Source: Alphaproteobacteria bacterium (GTDB lineage: Bacteria > Pseudomonadota > Alphaproteobacteria > SMXS01). Taken from it: a DNA stretch of 64,000 bases. Position 1 is the first letter of the stretch. The number at the start of each line of letters is the position of its first letter. Below the pieces are notes generated by a model, which did no database searches, had not been told where the DNA came from, and saw nothing but the letters and a program-made list of their open reading frames with translations. The translations under genes were made by a program, and so were the position numbers. Below, piece after piece: positions 1 to 44,160 of the stretch. The stretch is from the NCBI GenBank assembly GCA_028284945.1, contig JANQQJ010000028.1:62001-126000 (forward strand), in the 5' to 3' direction.

Positions 1-849
1 GCAGCCGAAGGCACAACCCGATATCTCGATACAGCGCTAATGCTCGCGCGCGATGCCTACCCCGACCGGATCGCCGAGATCGATGTTCTGGCCAGTGAAA
101 TCACCCCTGCCCAACCAAGCGCCGTCGCTGCGGCACCAGCGCCGCCTCCCCCGCCGGCGGAAGACCCGCCCGCCGAACCAGCCAAGCCTGTTGGTTTTTT
201 CTCATTCTCCGGCTGGAGCGGTTCAGTTGAACTCGGGGCGACGCTCACCACGGGCGATACGGATGAAAAGGCGCTGACCTCTGCCTTTGATCTGGTCAAC
301 GAGCGCGCCCGCTGGCGGCACAAATTGGGCGCCAGTTTCGACTTCACCCGCACCGCCGGCGCGACGACCAAACAGGCGCTCGCAGCCTATTACCAGCTCG
401 ACTACAAATTCAGTGAGCGGCTCTATGCCTTCGGTCGGTTCGAATATGACGACGACAGGTTTAGCGGGTTTGATTGGGAACTGCAGGAAGCCGTCGGCGT
501 TGGTTACCGGCTTTTCCAGGGGGACACCTACTTCTTCGATGTCGAAGGCGGCGTGATCTATGAGCAGATGAAGTTGACGGCCACCGGCATGACTGACTCC
601 CAATTCGGCGGCCGGGCCAATGCGATCTTCAACTGGGACATTTCAGAAACCTTTAGCCTGAACAACGAGACCACAGTCCTCGTCACAGAAGGCGGCGAGA
701 GCCTTGAGAATACCATCGCGGTTCAGACGAAGATCACCGACAGCATCTCCGGCAAGCTGTCATTCAACGTCGAATGGGAATCGGATGTGCCGGCTGGCGC
801 ATCGAAAACCAACACCGAGACCAAGGCAACGATTCTCTACGGTTTCTAA
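1..849 (+). CDS. DUF481 family outer-membrane protein, 5' end outside window
   Basis: The frame is open from the first base, so the protein probably starts upstream; an internal ATG at 40 is the first in the window. A Pro/Ala-rich linker (about residues 25-55 from that ATG) is followed by a beta-rich region with the pattern SGSVELGATLTTGDT and many alternating aromatic strands, ending in YGF with a terminal aromatic. This is typical of the DUF481 'salt-induced outer membrane protein' family, predicted to form an outer-membrane beta-barrel. Function in transport or stress is unproven. The 3' end overlaps the convergent alanine racemase gene by 4 bases. Confidence 0.8.
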   Translation, partial: AAEGTTRYLDTALMLARDAYPDRIAEIDVLASEITPAQPSAVAAAPAPPPPPAEDPPAEPAKPVGFFSFSGWSGSVELGATLTTGDTDEKALTSAFDLVNERARWRHKLGASFDFTRTAGATTKQALAAYYQLDYKFSERLYAFGRFEYDDDRFSGFDWELQEAVGVGYRLFQGDTYFFDVEGGVIYEQMKLTATGMTDSQFGGRANAIFNWDISETFSLNNETTVLVTEGGESLENTIAVQTKITDSISGKLSFNVEWESDVPAGASKTNTETKATILYGF

Positions 850-1943
850 CCGCCAGAGTAGTGCCGTTCAAACCGTCGGCCCAATCCAGTGAGAACCTCA
901 TAGGAAATGAGTCCGCCTGCGTCCGCCTGCTGATCGAGAAGGACGTTGGGGCCTATCAGTTCAATCAATTCACCAGGCGTGGTCGCGTCTTCGGACGCTA
1001 TGGTGACATCAAGAGTGATCAGATCCATCGAAACCCGGCCAACCATGGGCACGTGATACCCGGCGACAAAGCCCTGGCCGTGATTGGTCAGGGGCGTTGG
1101 CAGTCCGTCGGCATAGCCAGCGGCGACCGTCGCCAGCCGCATCCGGCCGTCGACTGTGTAGAGCGCCTCATACCCGATGGTCGCGGGTGGGTCGATCCAG
1201 CGCTGCTGCAACACCCGGGCCTTTGCAGTCACGACCGGCGCAAATGGATTGGCCACGCCATGCGTCGGGTTGCCGCCATAAAGCGCAATACCCACGCGCA
1301 CCGCATCGAAGTGATAGGCGGGTCCCAGCAAAACACCCGCTGAATTCGCCAGGCTTTTCCGGACATAGGGGTACATCGGGATCACCTCGTTGAAGAGGGC
1401 GAGTTGTGCCGCGTTCTGCGGGTGATCGATCTGCCCGGCACAGGCCAGATGACTCATGATCTCGACCAGGTTCAAACCATGGAGATTTGAGGCAAGCGCG
1501 CCTGCTTCTTCCGGTGCCAGCCCCAGCCGGTTCATACCCGTATCAACATGGATGATACAGGGCGCGCCCTGCCCGGCCTGACGCCAGCGTTCGACCTGCT
1601 CCATGTCGTTGAGAACCGGAACGAGACGGTGCTCAAGAAACACCCCTTCATCTCCGGGCATCAGCCCGTTGAGCACGATGACTTCAGCAGACCGCGCAAT
1701 TGTTTTGAGTTCAATGCCCTCTGTCACCGTGGCGACGAAAAAGCGTTTGCACCCGGCACCCTGAAGCGCCTTTACCACCGGCTCGATCCCCAAGCCATAG
1801 GCGTTGGCCTTGACGGCCGCGCCAACCTGCGCCCCCTCGGCGCGCGCGCAGATGTCGCGATAATTCGCGACGAGCGCCCCCAGATCAATCTCCAGGACGC
1901 CGGGGCTAAGAACCGTTGAGTTGTCAGAAGCAGGTGGCGGCAT
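846..1943 (-). CDS. alr: Alanine racemase
   Basis: PLP enzyme interconverting L- and D-alanine for peptidoglycan. The pyridoxal-lysine motif AAVKANAYGLG (Lys about 45) starts the barrel, followed by HVDTGMNRLGL, RVGIALYGGNP and the C-terminal beta-domain with IGYEALY (the catalytic tyrosine region) and GRVSMDLITLDV. About 365 residues, normal for the family. I chose the ATG at 1943 because it gives the usual short lead-in to LEIDLGALVANYR; a GTG at 1964 would add seven residues. No strong ribosome site is visible at either. It is convergent with the DUF481 gene and divergent from the LLM oxidoreductase. Confidence 0.95.
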   Translation of the reverse strand: MPPPASDNSTVLSPGVLEIDLGALVANYRDICARAEGAQVGAAVKANAYGLGIEPVVKALQGAGCKRFFVATVTEGIELKTIARSAEVIVLNGLMPGDEGVFLEHRLVPVLNDMEQVERWRQAGQGAPCIIHVDTGMNRLGLAPEEAGALASNLHGLNLVEIMSHLACAGQIDHPQNAAQLALFNEVIPMYPYVRKSLANSAGVLLGPAYHFDAVRVGIALYGGNPTHGVANPFAPVVTAKARVLQQRWIDPPATIGYEALYTVDGRMRLATVAAGYADGLPTPLTNHGQGFVAGYHVPMVGRVSMDLITLDVTIASEDATTPGELIELIGPNVLLDQQADAGGLISYEVLTGLGRRFERHYSGG

Positions 1944-2134
1944 GAGAGCTTGTTTGCACCACACGACGGGCCAACGCGCAAGGCGTTTTGGCAGACTGTC
2001 TCGACTGACATAGGGACAACATCATTGCCCCACCCGCCAATATGGGTAATGTGCATCCCATACACCGTAAACGGCTGCCCATAATATGCCCCGCAGGCTC
2101 GTCAGGCAGCGGTCCAATGTCAGGGAGACACCTT

Positions 2135-3178
2135 ATGAAACTCGGACTTTTGCTCGGCTACTCGGGCGGCACCATGGATATGGCCCTTGATATGGCCAAA
2201 GACGTCGAGGCCATGGGCTTCGATTCGGCCTGGACGGCAGAAGCCTATGGCTCTGACGCTGTGACGCCAGCCGCATGGGTTCTGGCCAACACGACAAAGC
2301 TGAAGGTTGGCACGGCGATCATGCAAATCCCGGCGCGGACACCTGCGATGACGGCCATGACCGCGATGACCCTGAACGCGCTGTCCGGCGACCGCTTCAT
2401 TCTGGGGCTTGGCCCGTCGGGCCCGCAAGTCGCTGAAGGGTGGCATGGCGTGCCTTATGGCAAGCCGATGACCAAGATTAAGGAATATATCGAGATCATT
2501 CGGATCATCCTGAAGCGTGAGGGTCGCCTCGACTATCAGGGTGAGGAATTCCAGGTGCCCAATACCGGCGAAGGCACCACGGGACTGGGTAAGCCGCTCA
2601 AGAGCATTCTGCACGGCAACCCGGATATGCCGATCTATACCGCCGCGATTACACCGGGCGGTCTGCGCACCTCTGCCGAAGTGGCCGACGGCGTGTTCCC
2701 GATCTGGATGAACCCGAGCCGCTATGACGTTTTGGAACAGAACCTGAATGAAGGCTTCGCAAAAGCCGGCAACAGCAAGAGCCTGGATAACTTCGATGTG
2801 GCGCCGTTCGTGACCGTTGCCATGGGTGATGATATCGACAAGTGCCGCGACATGGTGCGGCCCGGCATGGCGCTTTACATCGGTGGCATGGGCGCGCGAT
2901 CGAAGAACTTCTACAACGACTATGTGAAGCGCCTGGGCTACGAGGATGCGGCGATCAAGATCCAGGACCTGTTCCTGGACGGCAAGAAAGAAGAAGCCGC
3001 AGCAGCCATTCCGGACGAACTGATCGACAGCGTCGCGCTGATCGGCTCGAAGGATAAGATCGTCGGCGATCTGGAAGCCTGGAAAGAAGCCGGCAAGAAG
3101 AAGCATGTCGGTTCCATGATGCTGGGCTGCCGCCAGCCGGAAGCCCTCAAAGCCATCGCCGAGACGATGCTGTCTTAG
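2135..3178 (+). CDS. LLM-class oxidoreductase, Rv3520c family (F420-dependent type)
   Basis: Luciferase-like monooxygenase fold, about 347 residues. It begins MKLGLLLGYSGGTMDMA and keeps the family blocks FDSAWTAEAYGSDA, LGLGPSGPQVAEGWHG, NTGEGTTGLGKPLK and LYIGGMGARSKNFY, which resemble the mycobacterial Rv3520c group (TIGR03559) annotated as F420-dependent. Whether this host makes F420 or the enzyme uses FMN cannot be seen here. Start chosen at 2135 because an AGGGAG-like site lies just upstream (about 2122) and earlier in-frame starts add residues unlike the family. Substrate unknown. A palindromic repeat follows the stop codon. Confidence 0.88.
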   Translation: MKLGLLLGYSGGTMDMALDMAKDVEAMGFDSAWTAEAYGSDAVTPAAWVLANTTKLKVGTAIMQIPARTPAMTAMTAMTLNALSGDRFILGLGPSGPQVAEGWHGVPYGKPMTKIKEYIEIIRIILKREGRLDYQGEEFQVPNTGEGTTGLGKPLKSILHGNPDMPIYTAAITPGGLRTSAEVADGVFPIWMNPSRYDVLEQNLNEGFAKAGNSKSLDNFDVAPFVTVAMGDDIDKCRDMVRPGMALYIGGMGARSKNFYNDYVKRLGYEDAAIKIQDLFLDGKKEEAAAAIPDELIDSVALIGSKDKIVGDLEAWKEAGKKKHVGSMMLGCRQPEALKAIAETMLS

Positions 3179-3188
3179 AAGCTCTCAA

Positions 3189-3257
3189 TGTCATTCCGGC
3201 GAAAGCCGGAATCCAGATCATCCCTTATCCTGGACCCCGGCCTTCGCCGGGGTGACA
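3189..3257. repeat. Dispersed palindromic repeat, VTPAKAGVQ type
   Basis: A 69-base element bounded by TGTCA and TGACA. It contains two perfect hairpins: ATTCCGGC-GAAA-GCCGGAAT (3193-3212) and CCCCGGC-CTTC-GCCGGGG (3235-3252). Elements of this sort are scattered through many alphaproteobacterial genomes and read as VTPAKAGVQ in one frame. It sits between two convergent genes and its right half is translated as the tail of the flavodoxin gene. It may also act as a two-way transcription stop, although no T-run is present. Confidence 0.85.
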
Positions 3258-3727
3258 GGTGGGTTTAGCTTTTCAACAAAAGCATCCAGAGACTCTTCAA
3301 ACCCCGGCGCTTCTACCTGATCGGTTTTAAGGGCCAAGGTCGCTTCCGCAGGTCGTTTTAGAACGTCTGCCATGCCATCGAAAGCGATGTCCGGGTCCGA
3401 TTGTCCCCCATAGGTCACAAACAGGCCGACCCGGTCAGGCAACTTTGGGTTTCCGGCCAAGAACGCCCTGACCGGGAGCGATGGGTAACTGGTCCAGATC
3501 GGTGTACCAATCAGAACGAGGTCGTAGTCACCCGCAATCTTCGGCGCCTCGATTTCGGGCAGATTGCCCTTCACACTGTGATAGCCCGCCAGCAGGAAGC
3601 GGATCGCTCCGGTTCTGAAGCGCTCACAATGGATTTCTGCCAAATCAGCGTCTAGCCGATCCGCCAGGGCGGACGCCACCGTTCGGGTGGTACCCGTTCT
3701 CGAATAGTAGATGATGAGCGTCTTCAT
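3218..3727 (-). CDS. Flavodoxin-fold protein with repeat-derived C-terminus
   Basis: Starts MKTLIIYYSRTGTTRTVA, the phosphate-binding loop of flavodoxins (SRTGTT), followed by LVLIGTPIWTSYPS and FVTYGGQSD around the flavin. About 169 residues, so a single FMN-binding domain, probably a cytosolic electron carrier or quinone-type reductase. The last 14 residues (PPVTPAKAGVQDKG) are encoded by the dispersed repeat at 3189-3257, so the native C-terminus was probably replaced or extended. A perfect 10-bp inverted repeat ends seven bases upstream of the start codon, where a ribosome site should be, and no Shine-Dalgarno sequence is evident. Confidence 0.85.
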   Translation of the reverse strand: MKTLIIYYSRTGTTRTVASALADRLDADLAEIHCERFRTGAIRFLLAGYHSVKGNLPEIEAPKIAGDYDLVLIGTPIWTSYPSLPVRAFLAGNPKLPDRVGLFVTYGGQSDPDIAFDGMADVLKRPAEATLALKTDQVEAPGFEESLDAFVEKLNPPVTPAKAGVQDKG

Positions 3728-3734
3728 GACCGCA

Positions 3735-3768
3735 CCCGCGATAACCCTATGAAGAGCATTATCGCGGG
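3735..3768 (-). promoter_or_regulatory. Perfect 10-bp inverted repeat upstream of flavodoxin start
   Basis: CCCGCGATAA (3735-3744) and TTATCGCGGG (3759-3768) are exact reverse complements with a 14-base loop. On the minus strand the hairpin ends seven bases before the flavodoxin ATG, covering the expected ribosome-binding region. It could be a repressor operator, an RNA hairpin limiting translation, or a terminator remnant for the upstream VOC gene; there is no T-run after it. Confidence 0.45.
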
Positions 3769-3838
3769 CTACGGGTCAAACCGCCTTGACGACGGTCAAT
3801 TGTCTGAACTTGCTCCGGGCCTTACTCGACCTGTCGGT

Positions 3839-4417
3839 CTAGGCGAAGCTGTGCGCCTCGATCGACTTGTAAGGCACGATGACAGCTTGGCCTGACGACC
3901 AATCGATGCTGCGGGCCGGGTCGGTTTTGCCGTCCCAGTCCTCAGCGCCAGCTTTGACAATGTCGAACATGGCCTCGATCGCCTCTCCGCGCGCCATCAG
4001 CTGGATCATCACGCCGGGCTGATCCTCGGAATCGATATAGGCATGGCCGTCGCCATAACGCTGGCGCACCGTATAATTCATGCCCTTATCCTTCAGCTCG
4101 GTGAGTTTGTCTTCGATACTGTCGACCCAGACCGCAAGATGCTGCAGGCCGCCCGCCGGATTAGTTTTGAGATACTCCTCGTAAATGCAGGCCTCGTCAC
4201 CGCAGGGCTGGATGATTTCGATCTGCTGGTCGCCGGAATAGGCGAAGCCGGCTTTCAGCTCCAGCTTCTTGGCTTCGCCGTCGACAACACCATCAAAATC
4301 CTTCAGGTGCTCGACAAAGAACGGACCAACGCCCCGCGCCGTCCAGTGTTCGATCGCCTTGTCGATATCCGGCACCACATAGCCTTGCTGCACGACCGGT
4401 CCAAATACGTTGCTCAT
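3839..4417 (-). CDS. VOC (glyoxalase-fold) family protein
   Basis: About 192 residues beginning MSNVFGPVVQQGYVVPDIDKA, with the paired beta-alpha-beta-beta-beta modules of the vicinal oxygen chelate superfamily. Visible blocks include HWTARGVGPFFVEHL, GGLQHLAVWVDSIED (a likely metal-ligand His) and AYIDSEDQPGVMIQL (likely Glu/Gln side). Start chosen at 4417 because AGGAGACGAAG lies directly before it; upstream codons look non-coding. It resembles the VOC gene at 60468-61004 in length and layout, including a shared 'DWDGTDP/DWDGKTDP' tail motif. The reaction and substrate are not recognisable. Confidence 0.8.
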   Translation of the reverse strand: MSNVFGPVVQQGYVVPDIDKAIEHWTARGVGPFFVEHLKDFDGVVDGEAKKLELKAGFAYSGDQQIEIIQPCGDEACIYEEYLKTNPAGGLQHLAVWVDSIEDKLTELKDKGMNYTVRQRYGDGHAYIDSEDQPGVMIQLMARGEAIEAMFDIVKAGAEDWDGKTDPARSIDWSSGQAVIVPYKSIEAHSFA

Positions 4418-4520
4418 TCTTCGTCTCCTGTATTCTGATTTGTTTGTGGGTGTAGGATAGCGGAAGAGGTGCCGCGAGCGTATATCCTTTATACGCGAAG
4501 GAAAAACACAGGGCAGTTGC

Positions 4521-4955
4521 ATGTCATTTCATCGCTTTTCAGGACGATTACAGAAAATCGGAGTCCTTTGGCTTGCATTAGTCGCCCTGTCGATTGGCAT
4601 GCTTGCCGGGACGAATTCGGCCAGGGCAGCGAGCTACATCAACTACTATTGCGACTGCACACCCAACTCTGACGGCGTCTGCAGATGCTTTAAGATGGGT
4701 AGCTACACAATCGAACCCTCTGGCACGTCGAAGGAGTTCAGGGGCCACTGCAGCAACGCCACGGTCCAAAAACGCCGGGTCGACATTACCGGAAAGAAGA
4801 ACGGCACCTCCTGCGCAAAGACGGACACAATCTTTGGCTATGCGTCGGCGTCCTGCACCAACTGGAACCCGATAGAGTCGGACGGCATTAACATCTCGGT
4901 CCGCTGCGCGATTGATAATCCCAGCCTGGTCAACGGTGACCTAAACGCACCCTAG
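4521..4955 (+). CDS. Small secreted cysteine-rich protein, unknown
   Basis: 144 residues with a long positively charged n-region and a clear signal peptide (VLWLALVALSIGMLAG, likely cut after NSARA). The mature part is short and rich in paired cysteines (NYYCDCTPNSDGVCRCF, then further single Cys), suggesting disulfide-bonded periplasmic or exported protein. No family is recognised. It is divergent from the VOC gene with only about 100 bases between, and its end overlaps the convergent CoA-transferase gene by 4 bases. Confidence that it is a real gene rests on the signal peptide and cysteine pattern. Confidence 0.6.
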   Translation: MSFHRFSGRLQKIGVLWLALVALSIGMLAGTNSARAASYINYYCDCTPNSDGVCRCFKMGSYTIEPSGTSKEFRGHCSNATVQKRRVDITGKKNGTSCAKTDTIFGYASASCTNWNPIESDGINISVRCAIDNPSLVNGDLNAP

Positions 4956-6151
4956 TTGCCGACAACCCCCTCCAAACGAAGGGCGGTAATTTCGTCGGCG
5001 CTGAGTCCGTACTCAGCCAACACCTCGTCCGTCTGCTCGGCGAGCTTGGGCGCCGCACCGAGATTATCGGCGGGCGTGCCTTCAAACCTCGCGGCATGGC
5101 GCGCCTGACGGATCCTGCCCGCATGCGGGTGGTCATATTCGACGAGCGATTCATTGGCGACGACCTGCGGATGATCGAGGACATCCTTGCGCTTTAGGAC
5201 CGGCGCACAGGGCACGCCGGCATCGTCCAGAATATCGAACCATTCCTGTGTGGTTTTTTCTGTCAGGACGCTCTGGGTCAGTTCCAGCCGGTCATTGATG
5301 TTGAGGTCGCGCAGCGCCGGGGTTTTGAAGCGCTCATCCTCCAGCCATTCGGGATGACCGACAGCATGGCAGAGCGCCTCCCACTGGGCGTTGCTCATCA
5401 CCGCGACGCTCATATAGCCATCGGCAGTTTCGTAAATCAGATCAATGAAGCTGGCCGCGCGTTGTTCCGACACTTCCTTGCCCACGAAAGTCTGACCGCC
5501 CATGTCGGACGACCAGAGAAACTGGGTGACCGCATCCATCATGGAAAGCCGAACATGCTGGCCCTGCCCCGTCCGCTCCCGCGCCAGCAGCGCGGCGGTA
5601 ATCGCCTGAAACGCAGTCATCGCCGTCAGTTTGTCCGGCAGGATGGTGCGCACCAGCCGCGGCCGCGCCTTATCCGATCCGCCCTGTATAGATGCGAGGC
5701 CAGATAGCGCCTGGATGATCGGGTCATAGACCGGCTTGTGCGAATAGGGTCCCTTTTCACCGAACCCGGAGATTGAGACATAGACCAGCTTCGGGTTTTC
5801 CGCCTTCAGCGCTTCATAACCAACACCAAGCCGGTCAACGACACCGGGCCGGAAATTTTGCATGAACACATCGGCGCCACGCACCATGCGCTTCAGCACG
5901 TCGACCCCGGCCTGTTGTTTGAGATCGATGGTGATGGAACGTTTGTTACGGTTGTTGTTCAGGAATGTCGCGTGCAGCCCGCCCGACCGATTGCCCCCTG
6001 CACGCACATAATCACCCACCTTGGGCGGTTCGATCTTGATCACATCAGCGCCCTGATCCCCCAGCAGCATGGTCGCAAATGGCCCGGAAATCATGCTGGT
6101 AACATCGAGGATCCTGTATCCCTCCAGCGGTCCACTCATCGAGCTGGTCAT
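4952..6151 (-). CDS. CaiB/BaiF family (class III) CoA-transferase
   Basis: 399 residues opening with GPLEGYRILDVTSMISGPFA and GADVIKIEPPKVGD, the signature of the class III transferases that move CoA between carboxylic acids. The segment LPDKLTAMTAFQAI carries the likely catalytic Asp. The C-terminal part (FDILDDAGVPCAPV, HPHAGRIRQARHAARF) is also typical. The start codon overlaps the stop of the upstream quinone reductase (ATGA), so the two are co-translated. Substrate unknown; the P450 and VOC neighbours suggest catabolism of a carboxylated compound. Confidence 0.9.
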   Translation of the reverse strand: MTSSMSGPLEGYRILDVTSMISGPFATMLLGDQGADVIKIEPPKVGDYVRAGGNRSGGLHATFLNNNRNKRSITIDLKQQAGVDVLKRMVRGADVFMQNFRPGVVDRLGVGYEALKAENPKLVYVSISGFGEKGPYSHKPVYDPIIQALSGLASIQGGSDKARPRLVRTILPDKLTAMTAFQAITAALLARERTGQGQHVRLSMMDAVTQFLWSSDMGGQTFVGKEVSEQRAASFIDLIYETADGYMSVAVMSNAQWEALCHAVGHPEWLEDERFKTPALRDLNINDRLELTQSVLTEKTTQEWFDILDDAGVPCAPVLKRKDVLDHPQVVANESLVEYDHPHAGRIRQARHAARFEGTPADNLGAAPKLAEQTDEVLAEYGLSADEITALRLEGVVGN

Positions 6152-40020: not shown

Positions 40021-41979
40021 TTACTCCCCCAGCCTTACACGCAGACCGCCATAAGCACCAATGCCGGGAGACCGGAACGAAAAGACCTCTTCATAGTCTT
40101 CGTCCAGCGCGTTTTCGATCCGCCCGAACAACGCGATGTTGTCGGTCAACTGATACTCCGCCGCCAGCGTAACCAGCACATAGCTGTCCAGGGTCACCCG
40201 GGACTCCGGTGTCGCGGCGATGAACTCGTTATCGAGCTGCTTACCGTTGTAAGAGACATCCAGATTGACGTTGCCGCGCCCATCGCTGAACGCATAGTTC
40301 GCATTGAAATTGGCGATATGCTTGGGCCGCCGCACCTCACGCATGCCGTCCGGTTGACGCGACTTGGTATAGGTATAGCTGCCAGAAATAGAGATCTGGT
40401 CACTGAGCTGCGCGGCCATGATCACCTCGACGCCCTCACGCTTGCTCTTCCCGTCCAGGTTCTCGACGGTGGATAGGAATGTCGCAAAGTCAAATACGGT
40501 TACAATCTCGTCGGTCAAATCGGCATTGAAATAGGTGACATCCAGCTTCAGCCGGTCGTCAAAGAAACGCTGTTCGACACCAACGTCAAAACTTTCCGAT
40601 TTTTCAGGTCTGAGGTTGGGGTTACCCAAAAAGAAGTCGGGGAAGAACCCGAATAGCTCAAAGAACCCGGGATTGGTAATGGCTGTCCCCCAACTGCCAT
40701 GCAGCCGGGTGCCACTGCCCGGCATCAACCAGGCAGCAGCAACCCGGTAGGTGGTTGCATTATCAAAAAGCGTATTGTCGTCATGGCGGATGCCAGCAGA
40801 CAAATAGACTTGGTCGGCAAAGCCGACACGGTATTCACCAATGAAACTGTCCTGATTGTCTGACCGGCGCTGGTTTTCAAGCGCGTCAGGCACGGCACCG
40901 AAGTTCTCGAAATCCAGTTCTTCACGTTCATAAGCCGCAGTGAGCGTGTGTTTCGCCCCCATAACAGAGGGCGTATCCAGATTGACGGTAAACTGCTGGG
41001 TAAATTTGAGCCGCTCACCTTCATTGCCCGTCAGGTCGTTGCTGTCATTAACGAATTCACGTTCGCTGCGGGAATAGCCAACGGCAGTCTTGAACGCGAA
41101 GGCATTTTCGAAAAACGAGCCGTCAATACTGAGTCCTGTATAGAGCTGCTCGATGAACTGACGATTCATCGCATCGACCGCAAGGCCATTTGTAGGTGTT
41201 GGCGGAAAGTCAAAATCCTGGCCATCATTGTCGGTCCGCGTATCACCATAGCGGAGAACGGCTTGAGCCGAGACACCGTCAAACAGCTGAGCCCGCGCTT
41301 TGCCGTTGACGGTAATGATCCGCGATCCGTCCTTTTCATCGCCAAAACGTGACAGATTGATCCCATCGGTTTCCAGATATCCGGCAGAGACAGCGCCGGT
41401 GAACCGCTCGACGCCGCCAGAGATCAGGGCGGTCGCTTGAACTGTCCCAAACGAGCCGCCTTCAAGTGATGCCGCGGCCTCAAACCCAGGCTCACCGCCC
41501 TTGGTGATGACATTGATCACACCGCCGATGGCATCAGAACCATAGAGCGCGCTTTGAGCGCCACGCAGGATTTCAACCCGCTCTATCCCGATCGCCAGTA
41601 GCCCAGAGAAATCAAACTCACCGTTGATGTTGAGTTCGTTGGCTTCGATCCCGTCAATCAGCACGAGCGTGTGATTGCCTTCAGCACCGCGGATCCGCAC
41701 CTGGCTGAGCTGACCAGGGCCGCCGGTCCGATTCACCGCCAGCCCCGGAATCGCGCGCAGCAAATCCGACATAATGGGGATCTGCCGCCGCTCGATTTCC
41801 TCACCTTCCAGCAGCGAGATACTCGTCCCCAGGGTATCTGCCGCCACTGGTGTCCGGGCACCTGTTGCGACAATCGTGTCGCCGGGGAAGAGGCCGTCTT
41901 CAGCGGCAGCGGACAAAGAATTCATGGTAACCAGAGTGCCGCCTAAAAGCGTGGCGAAGCAGATATTTATTCGTGTCAT
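40021..41979 (-). CDS. btuB: TonB-dependent vitamin B12 receptor
   Basis: 652 residues. Signal peptide (CFATLLGGTLVTMNSLSAAAE), then a TonB-box-like stretch and plug domain: DTIVATGARTPVAADTLGTS, LLRAIPGLAVNRTGGPGQL, IRGAEGNHTLVLIDGIEAN and SALYGSDAIGGVINVITKGG. The barrel ends with a terminal RVRLGE, and EDYEEVFSFRSPGIGAYGGL is the usual BtuB-like C-terminal region. A cobalamin riboswitch about 200 bases upstream and the btuFCD genes after it point to B12 import across the outer membrane. Confidence 0.93.
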   Translation of the reverse strand: MTRINICFATLLGGTLVTMNSLSAAAEDGLFPGDTIVATGARTPVAADTLGTSISLLEGEEIERRQIPIMSDLLRAIPGLAVNRTGGPGQLSQVRIRGAEGNHTLVLIDGIEANELNINGEFDFSGLLAIGIERVEILRGAQSALYGSDAIGGVINVITKGGEPGFEAAASLEGGSFGTVQATALISGGVERFTGAVSAGYLETDGINLSRFGDEKDGSRIITVNGKARAQLFDGVSAQAVLRYGDTRTDNDGQDFDFPPTPTNGLAVDAMNRQFIEQLYTGLSIDGSFFENAFAFKTAVGYSRSEREFVNDSNDLTGNEGERLKFTQQFTVNLDTPSVMGAKHTLTAAYEREELDFENFGAVPDALENQRRSDNQDSFIGEYRVGFADQVYLSAGIRHDDNTLFDNATTYRVAAAWLMPGSGTRLHGSWGTAITNPGFFELFGFFPDFFLGNPNLRPEKSESFDVGVEQRFFDDRLKLDVTYFNADLTDEIVTVFDFATFLSTVENLDGKSKREGVEVIMAAQLSDQISISGSYTYTKSRQPDGMREVRRPKHIANFNANYAFSDGRGNVNLDVSYNGKQLDNEFIAATPESRVTLDSYVLVTLAAEYQLTDNIALFGRIENALDEDYEEVFSFRSPGIGAYGGLRVRLGE

Positions 41980-42175
41980 TTATGTCCTCCATAGCGACAT
42001 GAAAGCTGGGGACAGATGCACGAAGAGCGTCAGCGCAAAGGCGCGCTGCGTTTGTTGTTATGCAGGACAATTGTCGTCCCATTGTCGGCCTCCGCCGTGC
42101 ATCAACCCCTGTTCAAGGTGTCGCCACGACGGTTTCGGCCGCTCCACCCACTCAGCCCGGTGCGTGGTAGGACGA
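41980..42175. other. Leader between riboswitch and btuB
   Basis: 196 bases of the btuB leader downstream of the aptamer on the minus strand. No gene is visible; it should carry the expression platform of the riboswitch. I could not assign a clear terminator, so control at translation is as likely as at transcription. Confidence 0.4.
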
Positions 42176-42340
42176 CGTGATGGCAGGTCTCCTGGCTCGC
42201 GGGTCAGTATCGCAATGCGCCTTCCCAGGCATAGATGCCCAGTGGCGTGATGGCATTACGACTCGCCGCTTACAGTTGCGGGGACAGCCATGGCTTAAAC
42301 CGGATTGATGGCCCGGTTCCTCCATGTTCCCTTTAAAGCC
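42176..42340 (-). promoter_or_regulatory. Cobalamin (B12) riboswitch
   Basis: On the minus strand the 5' part reads AAAGGGAACATGG, the conserved core is TGTCCCCGCAACTGTAAGCG, and the B12 box is AGCCAGGAGACCTGCCATC (42179-42197). These are the classic conserved elements of the AdoCbl aptamer, in the right order and spacing. It should shut off btuB, F, C and D when B12 is plentiful. Confidence 0.95.
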
Positions 42341-42505
42341 CTTTTTGGGGCGCCATCAGGACCGGACCATAAGGATGAGGCCCGCGAGACGCAATTATCT
42401 TTCTTTTTTGCTTTCAGCGCCCGGTTCCGGTTGACGGGAACAGCAAATGGGATCAGGTTCCGCGGCCCTGGCGAATTTCCGTCAGGACATTGGAAAGAAG
42501 AACCG
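42341..42505. promoter_or_regulatory. Divergent promoter region of the B12 and rtcB operons
   Basis: 165 bases holding the start of the riboswitch transcript to the left and the leader of the rtcB transcript to the right. It includes a small hairpin GTTCC...GGAAC at about 42424-42440. No sigma-54 signature of the -24/-12 type, known for some rtcB operons, was found by eye. Confidence 0.35.
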
Positions 42506-42610
42506 ATGGTTTCGGCAAACCTCAATAGCAAGCACATGGCCGCGCTGGTCTCCCCAACAGCGCATTACGGCGATGTGCGTCCTTGGGAGGGGATTGCCGG
42601 AATCCACTAG
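42506..42610 (+). CDS. Possible 34-residue leader peptide of the rtcB transcript
   Basis: An ATG with GGAAAGAAG eight bases upstream opens a 34-codon frame (MVSANLNSKHMAALVSPTAHY...) that ends at TAG 42608-42610. The stop lies inside the multi-hairpin element that competes with the downstream terminator, so a ribosome finishing here would break the upstream 7-bp stem. There is no run of a single amino acid as in classic attenuators. It may simply be chance inside a non-coding leader. Confidence 0.3.
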   Translation: MVSANLNSKHMAALVSPTAHYGDVRPWEGIAGIH

Positions 42611-42645
42611 CTTTACTCGCTAAAACTGGTTCTTCCGACCCTCCC
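42585..42645 (+). promoter_or_regulatory. Closed multi-hairpin (tRNA-like) leader element
   Basis: GGGAGGG (42585-42591) pairs perfectly with CCCTCCC (42639-42645), closing 47 bases. Inside are GATT-GCCGG-AATC (42592-42604), TAGC-TTTACTC-GCTA (42608-42622, a seven-base loop like an anticodon arm) and a weak GG-TTCTT-CC arm (42628-42636). The layout recalls a small cloverleaf but is 61 bases long and lacks a proper T-loop, so it is not a tRNA. The closing CCCTCCC is also the left arm of the following terminator, so the two folds exclude each other. Confidence 0.45.
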
Positions 42646-42677
42646 TCGGCACATGGCTCTGGGAGGGTTTTTCTTTT
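42638..42677 (+). terminator. Rho-independent terminator in the rtcB leader
   Basis: ACCCTCCC (42638-42645) pairs with GGGAGGGT (42661-42668) around a 15-base loop and is followed by TTTTCTTTT. It lies about 260 bases upstream of rtcB. Its left arm can instead pair with GGGAGGG at 42585-42591, giving a terminator/antiterminator switch. Confidence 0.8.
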
Positions 42678-42718
42678 CCAGGGCCGTATTTGCACAACCT
42701 ATGGAAAAGAGACGACCC

Positions 42719-42934
42719 ATGTGGGCCTATATTGAATTTCACACCTATCGCGCACGGCTTATGGCGGGAACTCGTGGTGTGCCTGAAGGGACCCGGCCGG
42801 TAACTCCGGTCAAATACCCCCTGGGCACAGGCGATGACCGCAAGCGTGTTTCGGATACCAACAATTACAGGACGGACGGCTGCTCGTTTCGGCCGGCCAT
42901 CACCAAATTATGCTCTAATTTATGGAGTCACTGA
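42719..42934 (+). CDS. Possible small protein upstream of rtcB
   Basis: About 71 residues starting MWAYIEFHTYRARLMAGTRG, after GGAAAAGAG, and ending two bases before the chosen rtcB start, which would suit translational coupling. It is rich in Arg, Thr and Pro, with two Cys near the end. No family is recognised and third-codon GC is lower than in the neighbouring genes, so coding status is uncertain. It shares only the string TRGVP with the start of RtcB, probably by chance. Alternatively the stretch is untranslated leader RNA. Confidence 0.35.
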   Translation: MWAYIEFHTYRARLMAGTRGVPEGTRPVTPVKYPLGTGDDRKRVSDTNNYRTDGCSFRPAITKLCSNLWSH

Positions 42935-42936
42935 AA

Positions 42937-44160
42937 ATGAAGACCTACGAGGAATTGCAGAGCTTTGGCGCGCCGATCAAGGCATGGACGCGGGGTGTGC
43001 CGGTCGCAGACAACGCACTGGTCCAGCTGCAGAACGTGGCGCAGCTGCCCTTTGTGCATAGTCACGTCGCGGTGATGCCAGACGTTCACTGGGGCAAGGG
43101 TGCCACGGTGGGCAGCGTGATCCCCTGCAAGGGCGCGATTGTCCCGGCTGCTGTCGGCGTCGACATCGGTTGTGGCATGATGGCCGTGCGGACCAGCCTG
43201 GGTGCGATCCATCTGCCTGACAATCTGGGTCCCTTGCGGACGGCGATTGAACGGGCGGTCCCCCATGGCCGGACGGCGAATGGCGGGCCCAATGACCGGG
43301 GGTCCTGGTCGACGGTGCCGGCACGGGCTGCCAACCGGTGGCAGACCGAGTTTGCCGCGCGTTACGATGCTTTGGCCGACAAGCACAAGGCGTTGCGCAA
43401 GGCGAACACGGTTCATCACCTGGGTACCTTGGGCACCGGCAACCACTTCATCGAGCTTTGCCTCGATGAGGAGGGCATGGTCTGGGTGATGCTGCACTCC
43501 GGCAGCCGTGGGATCGGCAACAAGATCGGCACCTATTTCATCGAGCAGGCCAAGCGCGAGATGGAGCGGTACCATGTCGGGCAGTTTCTGCCCGACAAGG
43601 ACCTGTCCTACCTGGTCGAACACACGGAAATCTTCGATGACTATATCGAAGCCGTCGGCTGGGCGCAGGAGTTCGCCATGGCCAACCGTGAGGTGATGAT
43701 GAGCCGCGTGCTGGAGGCGATGCGCAAGCATCTGCCCCGGTTCAAGCTCTCAAAGGAAGCGGTGAACTGCCACCACAACTATGTGGCGCGGGAAAACCAC
43801 TTCGGCACCAATGTGTGGCTGACCCGTAAGGGCGCTGTGCGGGCCCGCAAGAACGACCTGGGGATTATTCCCGGGTCGATGGGCGAACGGTCCTTCATCG
43901 TGCGGGGCAAAGGGAACGACCAGTCGTTCCATTCCTGCTCCCACGGGGCCGGGCGTGTCATGTCGCGGGGCGAGGCCAAGCGGACCTTTACGCTGGCTGA
44001 CCACCGCGCAGCCACCGAAGGCGTCGAGTGCCGTAAGGACAAGGACGTCATCGACGAAACGCCAATGGCATACAAAAACATCGACGCGGTGATGGCCGCC
44101 CAAGCCGAACTGGTCGATGTGGAACACACCCTCAAGCAGGTGCTCTGCGTGAAGGGGTAA
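42937..44160 (+). CDS. rtcB: RNA-splicing ligase RtcB
   Basis: 407 residues, close to the E. coli protein in length and sequence pattern. It joins RNA 2',3'-cyclic phosphate or 3'-phosphate ends to 5'-OH ends using GTP and Mn2+. Metal ligands and catalytic residues are visible: Asp76 and Cys79 in GVDIGCGM, His170 in GTGNHF, His187 in MLHSGSRG, His279/280 in NCHHNYV, and the guanylylated His336 in CSHGAGRVMSR. ATG at 42937 has GGAG nine bases upstream. No RtcA cyclase, archease or sigma-54 RtcR activator lies nearby; instead two unknown small genes follow. Confidence 0.96.
   Translation: MKTYEELQSFGAPIKAWTRGVPVADNALVQLQNVAQLPFVHSHVAVMPDVHWGKGATVGSVIPCKGAIVPAAVGVDIGCGMMAVRTSLGAIHLPDNLGPLRTAIERAVPHGRTANGGPNDRGSWSTVPARAANRWQTEFAARYDALADKHKALRKANTVHHLGTLGTGNHFIELCLDEEGMVWVMLHSGSRGIGNKIGTYFIEQAKREMERYHVGQFLPDKDLSYLVEHTEIFDDYIEAVGWAQEFAMANREVMMSRVLEAMRKHLPRFKLSKEAVNCHHNYVARENHFGTNVWLTRKGAVRARKNDLGIIPGSMGERSFIVRGKGNDQSFHSCSHGAGRVMSRGEAKRTFTLADHRAATEGVECRKDKDVIDETPMAYKNIDAVMAAQAELVDVEHTLKQVLCVKG

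Follow-up and report, generated by a model that had tools for sequence, protein, structure and literature searches.

The closest tested precedent for the locus described here is PA5471.1-armZ(-PA5470) of Pseudomonas aeruginosa, where the 13-amino-acid leader peptide PA5471.1 controls the RtcB-like gene armZ, which is turned on by blocked leader translation, by ribosome inhibitors, or by loss of the CCA-adding enzyme (PMC13041342, PMC12057347, PMC3516279). In a cca mutant, i.e., in response to a tRNA defect, the ribosome association of the PA5471.1 leader and the expression of armZ both increase (PMC13041342, PMC12057347). RNA damage also turns on rtcB in the rtcBA operon of Escherichia coli and Salmonella, with damaged tRNAs as the signal (PMC7790460), but there the response depends on RtcR, a CARF-domain activator protein, and a sigma54 promoter. 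A third point of reference is the family of trp/his-type attenuators, including trpL/rnTrpL of Alphaproteobacteria, in which the leader open reading frame (ORF) stops near the antiterminator strand and the pairings A:B, B:C, and C:D are combined with an intrinsic terminator. A search of mostly open-access literature turned up no attenuator described for rtcB proper or for Hen1/Pnkp operons.

The window analyzed in the current study is a stretch of 64,000 nucleotides from a 3.56-Mb alphaproteobacterial genome assembly without close relatives in the comparison set; its class follows from the relatives of its rtcB. Its plus strand carries a switch element followed by rtcB, and a second rtcB copy is located on contig C20 of the same genome. 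The leader of the window rtcB is very probably a ribosome-mediated (leader-peptide) transcription attenuator, composed of the following elements.

42431 to 42458, plus strand: putative promoter, TTGACG and TCAGGT spaced by 16 nt, with a weak -10 element.
42506 to 42610, plus strand: leader ORF (uORF) of 34 codons, MVSANLNSKHMAALVSPTAHYGDVRPWEGIAGIH and stop, with GGAAAGAAG upstream as the ribosome-binding site.
42507 to 42523, plus strand: segment A, the start of the uORF, which can pair with 42587-42606 and partly hide segment B.
42532 to 42578, plus strand: hairpin in the predicted folds, inside the uORF just 5' of segment B.
42585 to 42591, plus strand: segment B, GGGAGGG, the 5' strand of the antiterminator, inside the W-E-G codons of the uORF.
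42639 to 42645, plus strand: segment C, CCCTCCC, common to the antiterminator (B:C) and the terminator (C:D).
42661 to 42677, plus strand: segment D, GGGAGGGT (42661-42668; GGGAGGG at 42661-42667), and the T-tract of the intrinsic terminator.
42937 to 44160, plus strand: rtcB, encoding the RNA ligase RtcB (Pfam PF01139, E 6e-129), the regulated gene, with a GGAG ribosome-binding site just 5' of its ATG at 42937.

The candidate promoter at 42431 lies at the same distance from the uORF as the elements TTGACT-17-GATAGT and TTGACA-17-CATAGT in the leaders L132 and L133; a generic promoter scan of 41900-43100 called no promoter. Upstream, the minus strand encodes btuB (40021-41979) with a cobalamin riboswitch (42165-42372). 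A terminator of btuB, or one common to both genes, was rejected because btuB and its riboswitch run in the opposite direction, and the minus strand of the hairpin lacks a T-tract.

The preliminary description had segments B (42585-42591) and D (42661-42668) competing for segment C (42639-42645), and all three sequences are found exactly at these positions. Its T-tailed terminator was likewise borne out: the pairing C:D followed by TTTTTCTTTT makes a strong intrinsic terminator between the leader and rtcB (42637-42677, about -21 to -22 kcal/mol in the predicted fold), and the z score is -3.3 for 42612-42677 (1 of 200 shuffles equally good) and -2.83 for the whole of 42585-42677 (0 of 200). The alternative pairing uses the 5' strand of this terminator, and the corresponding B:C fold (42577-42650) has a predicted energy of -24.8 kcal/mol at a z score of -1.5. 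In the nascent RNA before segment D is made, B:C is the minimum-energy fold (-22.7 kcal/mol at 42647), whereas the model prefers the terminator once D is present (-35.4 versus -25.5 kcal/mol with B:C forced) and re-pairs the upstream strand. Since full-length folding thus favors the terminator by about 10 kcal/mol, antitermination must be kinetic. Tested against shuffled upstream sequence, B:C is marginal in the window (p = 0.06 for the helix, 0.13 for the energy) and reaches significance through the comparison with relatives.

The 61-base element closed by B and C had been described as a multi-hairpin structure with a tRNA-like fold. The closing pairing stands, but the model yields a single interrupted hairpin inside it, and the supposed anticodon-like arm with its seven-base loop (TAGC-TTTACTC-GCTA) instead holds in its stem the stop of a previously unnoticed leader ORF. 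This uORF extends from ATG 42506 to TAG 42608-42610 on the same strand as rtcB, and its end overlaps the antiterminator strand: the codons TGG GAG GGG (Trp-Glu-Gly) contain segment B, which lies 17-23 nt before the stop, i.e., at the edge of the footprint of a terminating ribosome. For the region 42507-42612, the predicted energy is -48.6 kcal/mol (z -3.67), a value equaled by none of 200 shuffles, and the hairpin at 42532-42578 is possibly an RNA polymerase pause hairpin. All four segments of a leader-peptide attenuator are therefore present, namely, the pairings A:B, B:C, and C:D and an ORF covering A and B.

DNA homology searches with the leader in 95 relatives returned chance matches only, since the leaders diverge too fast and their conservation becomes visible only by position before rtcB. 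A set of 201 rtcB leaders, chosen by their position before the gene, was examined for a terminator preceded by a stretch complementary to its 5' strand. The same terminator sequence precedes rtcB in many Alphaproteobacteria, and a terminator plus segment B was detected in 87 of the 201 leaders, including 57 of the 98 from the order and family samples. In 86 of these 87, a uORF of a length similar to that of the window uORF stops shortly after B, and the order of uORF, C after B, terminator, and rtcB is shared. Both the position and the pairing logic of the terminator/antiterminator switch proposed for the window are thus conserved in relatives. The medians over 59 nonredundant leaders are 31 codons for the uORF, 17 nt from the start of B to the stop, and about 52 nt from B to C. 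When the uORF is strictly required to start with ATG, to have a ribosome-binding-site-like motif, to span 22-46 codons, and to stop 3-30 nt past B, 64 of the 87 leaders qualify versus 2.1 expected from dinucleotide shuffles. These counts are not independent because the leaders are related, yet they come from several families whose peptide sequences are unrelated to one another. Read in the +1 and +2 frames, the uORFs contain 70 and 30 stops, respectively, over the same 1771 codons.

The antiterminator is equally recurrent. The minimum-energy fold before segment D includes B:C in 59/59 nonredundant leaders (median -25.2 kcal/mol, versus -20.5 for the terminator). For the competing pairing of B with upstream sequence (segment A in the window), the median probability over the 59 leaders is 0.67. 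As B had been picked for its pairing, B:C was tested against shuffled upstream sequence, and the combined leaders gave p values of 6e-13 (helix) and 9e-17 (energy). Covariation, named in the preliminary description as a check to make on related leaders, was found in the genus g290, where all three strands have changed together at unchanged spacing (B/C/D is GGGCUG/CAGCCC/GGGCUG instead of GGAGGG/CCCUCC/GGAGGG). Elsewhere, the register of C varies between CCCTCC, CCCCTC, and AACCCC, each with matching B and D.

The leader peptide itself is a different matter. The pN/pS values of four groups are 0.95, 0.90, 0.98, and 0.67, so that the residues are not under purifying selection in three of the four. 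A conserved peptide was rejected on the basis of these values, which make it improbable that the peptide has a function of its own. Among the 59 nonredundant leader peptides, no codon runs were found, and no family has a repeated control codon. Since the residues drift and codon runs are missing, it is the frame, the length, and the stop that are kept, not the peptide, a pattern that would fit a sensor of general ribosome progress instead of one amino acid.

The sequences show the ORF, the potential for the pairings A:B, B:C, and C:D, the conservation of these parts, and their recurrence before RNA-repair genes. From them, we infer a working switch with the following response and signal. RNA polymerase would make a leader with the 34-codon ORF. 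In healthy cells the leader ribosome would translate to the stop and cover or have passed B, which stays hidden, so that C pairs with D and RNA polymerase terminates near 42675. A stall within the first ~20 codons, caused by cleavage of a required tRNA or by damage to or inhibition of the ribosome, would occupy A and leave B free; B:C would then form instead of the terminator, and rtcB would be transcribed. Without any translation, A:B would hide B and termination would stay on, and readthrough would accordingly, in this model, depend on translation of the leader. A link between the switch and RNA damage is plausible.

Compared with its nearest precedent, the locus shares with PA5471.1-armZ a short leader ORF, a terminator formed from segments 3:4, the proposed antitermination upon ribosome stalling, and an RtcB-family protein as the target, with armZ being inducible by a tRNA defect. 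PA5471.1 is a 13-amino-acid leader in a gammaproteobacterium, and armZ encodes an RtcB-like anti-repressor controlling an efflux pump, whereas the alphaproteobacterial leaders have 20-45 codons and precede rtcB proper, a Pnkp/Hen1 operon, and a Ro60 gene. The occurrence of the switch at these genes suggests that the control of armZ is part of a wider habit in which RtcB-family genes are placed under ribosome-stalling control.

The layout of the rtcB leaders is also identical to that of trp-type attenuators. A classic amino-acid-specific attenuator with particular control codons that was reused for rtcB is nevertheless an unlikely explanation. Gln codons are enriched in the leaders (8.5% versus 1.7% in rtcB), and codons Q3/F4 matter in PA5471.1 (PMC13041342), but the window peptide has no Gln, no family has consecutive codons for a single regulated amino acid, the amino acids drift freely, and the target serves RNA repair, rtcB not being a biosynthetic gene.

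Less probable still is an arrangement in which 42506-42677 is a separate gene for a small RNA or small protein, closed by the terminator, while transcription of rtcB starts from its own promoter within 42678-42936. The 259 nt between the terminator and rtcB in the window would provide the room, and a second ORF (42701-42934) is found there, with an upstream stretch AAAGAGACGACCCATG like the start of the Brevundimonas uORF. In most relatives, however, the terminator lies only 40-110 nt from rtcB, so that a promoter would hardly fit; moreover, the peptide lacks sequence conservation, and the alternative pairing B:C would have no explanation.

The B-C spacer bears on the remaining alternative. 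Its hairpins differ between families, are not tRNA-like, and have neither a conserved sequence nor a conserved fold, which argues against a conserved sensor domain between B and C. ARAGORN detected no tRNA in the element, and Rfam scans at gathering and E-value thresholds gave no match above threshold, i.e., no T-box riboswitch, tRNA-like sensor, or YrlA RNA model; a hit to ctRNA_p42d (17.6 bits, gathering cutoff 50) was discarded as mere terminator resemblance. The tRNA mimic formerly proposed as the sensor was therefore abandoned. A translation-independent riboswitch in which 42585-42645, as a T-box-like element or a tRNA mimic, recognizes tRNA or its fragments would agree with the mutually exclusive pairings and with the response of RtcR-type systems to damaged tRNAs (PMC7790460), but it is very improbable given the variable spacer and the negative scans, and a pure RNA sensor would not explain why 86 of 87 leaders have a uORF that ends at B.

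The layout of the proposed attenuator is not confined to rtcB. A search of the window's own genome with the pattern CCCTCC-N8-30-GGAGGG-N-TTTT retrieved only two sites, the rtcB leader and one on contig C26 (L249/L250; G000:C26:5687 and 1-5776). The latter has the same layout, with a 31-codon GTG uORF (VQHGFYNLTISLEGRHFLPGDLNLCARLMGG and stop), a ribosome-binding site, and a TTGACT/TAGAAC promoter-like pair. It directly precedes a small ORF, which is followed by genes for RlaP (PF10127, 1.7e-81), Hen1 (PF12623, 7e-40 on the first 97 residues), a Thg1-like protein (PF04446), and Pnkp/ligase (PF16542). Judged by these domains, the operon is of the bacterial Pnkp/Hen1 type of RNA-repair operon; Pnkp/Hen1 complexes mend RNA cut by ribotoxins (PMC4411300). 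Of the Hen1 operons of five other Alphaproteobacteria, one (L258) has a GC-rich terminator at a distance of about 23 nt from Hen1 but no convincing uORF, and the others lack a comparable terminator with uORF; the Hen1 link thus comes from the window's own genome alone. The pattern is rare in 20 other genomes (0 to 6 matches each), where rtcB follows the sites that have both B and a uORF, except for one site before a TROVE/Ro60 gene (L262; G654:C13:218375, minus strand). Here, an attenuator with a 32-codon uORF is located about 1 kb upstream of the gene (PF05731, 28.8 bits at a cutoff of 23).

RtcR, the known sigma54 activator of rtc operons, is absent from all 19 searched genomes that have the attenuator, whereas 8 of the 17 whose rtcB lacks it encode RtcR (p 0.0008). 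In the window's own genome, the only RtcR is encoded next to the second rtcB on contig C20, together with a Ro60 homologue and a tRNA-like element; the leader of this rtcB copy lacks the attenuator. The RtcR and the tRNA- or Y-RNA-like piece to which the earlier analogy points hence exist in this genome, but at the C20 locus. Between 42325 and 44693, a scan allowing up to 3 mismatches detected no -24/-12-like site, a sigma54 promoter for the window rtcB was consequently rejected, and the gene has no adjacent rtcR.

Since one genome has this switch at two repair systems that are unrelated to each other, and many Alphaproteobacteria have it at rtcB, a common regulon is predicted. The broader proposal that the translating ribosome serves as the RNA-damage sensor in Alphaproteobacteria, and that a codon-blind class of attenuators forms a regulon for rtcB, RlaP-Hen1-Thg1-Pnkp, and Ro60 that replaces RtcR, has in our estimation an even chance of being correct. 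If the leader ribosome is indeed the sensor, this would directly account for the detection of cut tRNAs or ribosomes in bacteria without RtcR, and any cut tRNA that stalls it in the leader would switch on the very ligase that mends it.

Several further observations concern the surroundings of these genes. The 42701-42934 frame between the terminator and the window rtcB comprises 77 codons, has the start region AAAGAGACGACCCATGTGGGCCTAT, which resembles the Brevundimonas uORF start, and shows no Pfam match; it ends 2 nt before the rtcB ATG and could be translationally coupled to rtcB. In some Hyphomonadaceae-type leaders (L091, and L182, L188, and L194 with similar spacing), the terminator lies ~300 nt before rtcB, and in L091 a small protein gene (beginning VRVYQCRFRRGAERTVAWIEARGAKV) is found in between. 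A repeated array of 'GTGGTGAAGAG'-like units, which may encode Y-RNA/tRNA-like RNAs, lies between the attenuator and the TROVE/Ro60 gene of L262. The RtcR-type rtcB leaders L137, L139, L142, L143, and L124 (own C20) contain repeated tRNA-like pieces in a swapped order, GCGAATGCCGGCGGGACTACAT ... GGTTCGANNCC ... CTCGTCGCC; L139, L142, and L143 matched no Rfam family, and ARAGORN mostly called no tRNA in the RtcR-type leaders. In the own RtcR-type rtcBA locus (L041, about 120-210; G000:C20), a tRNA-Ser-like gene was recognized by eye directly beyond rtcA.
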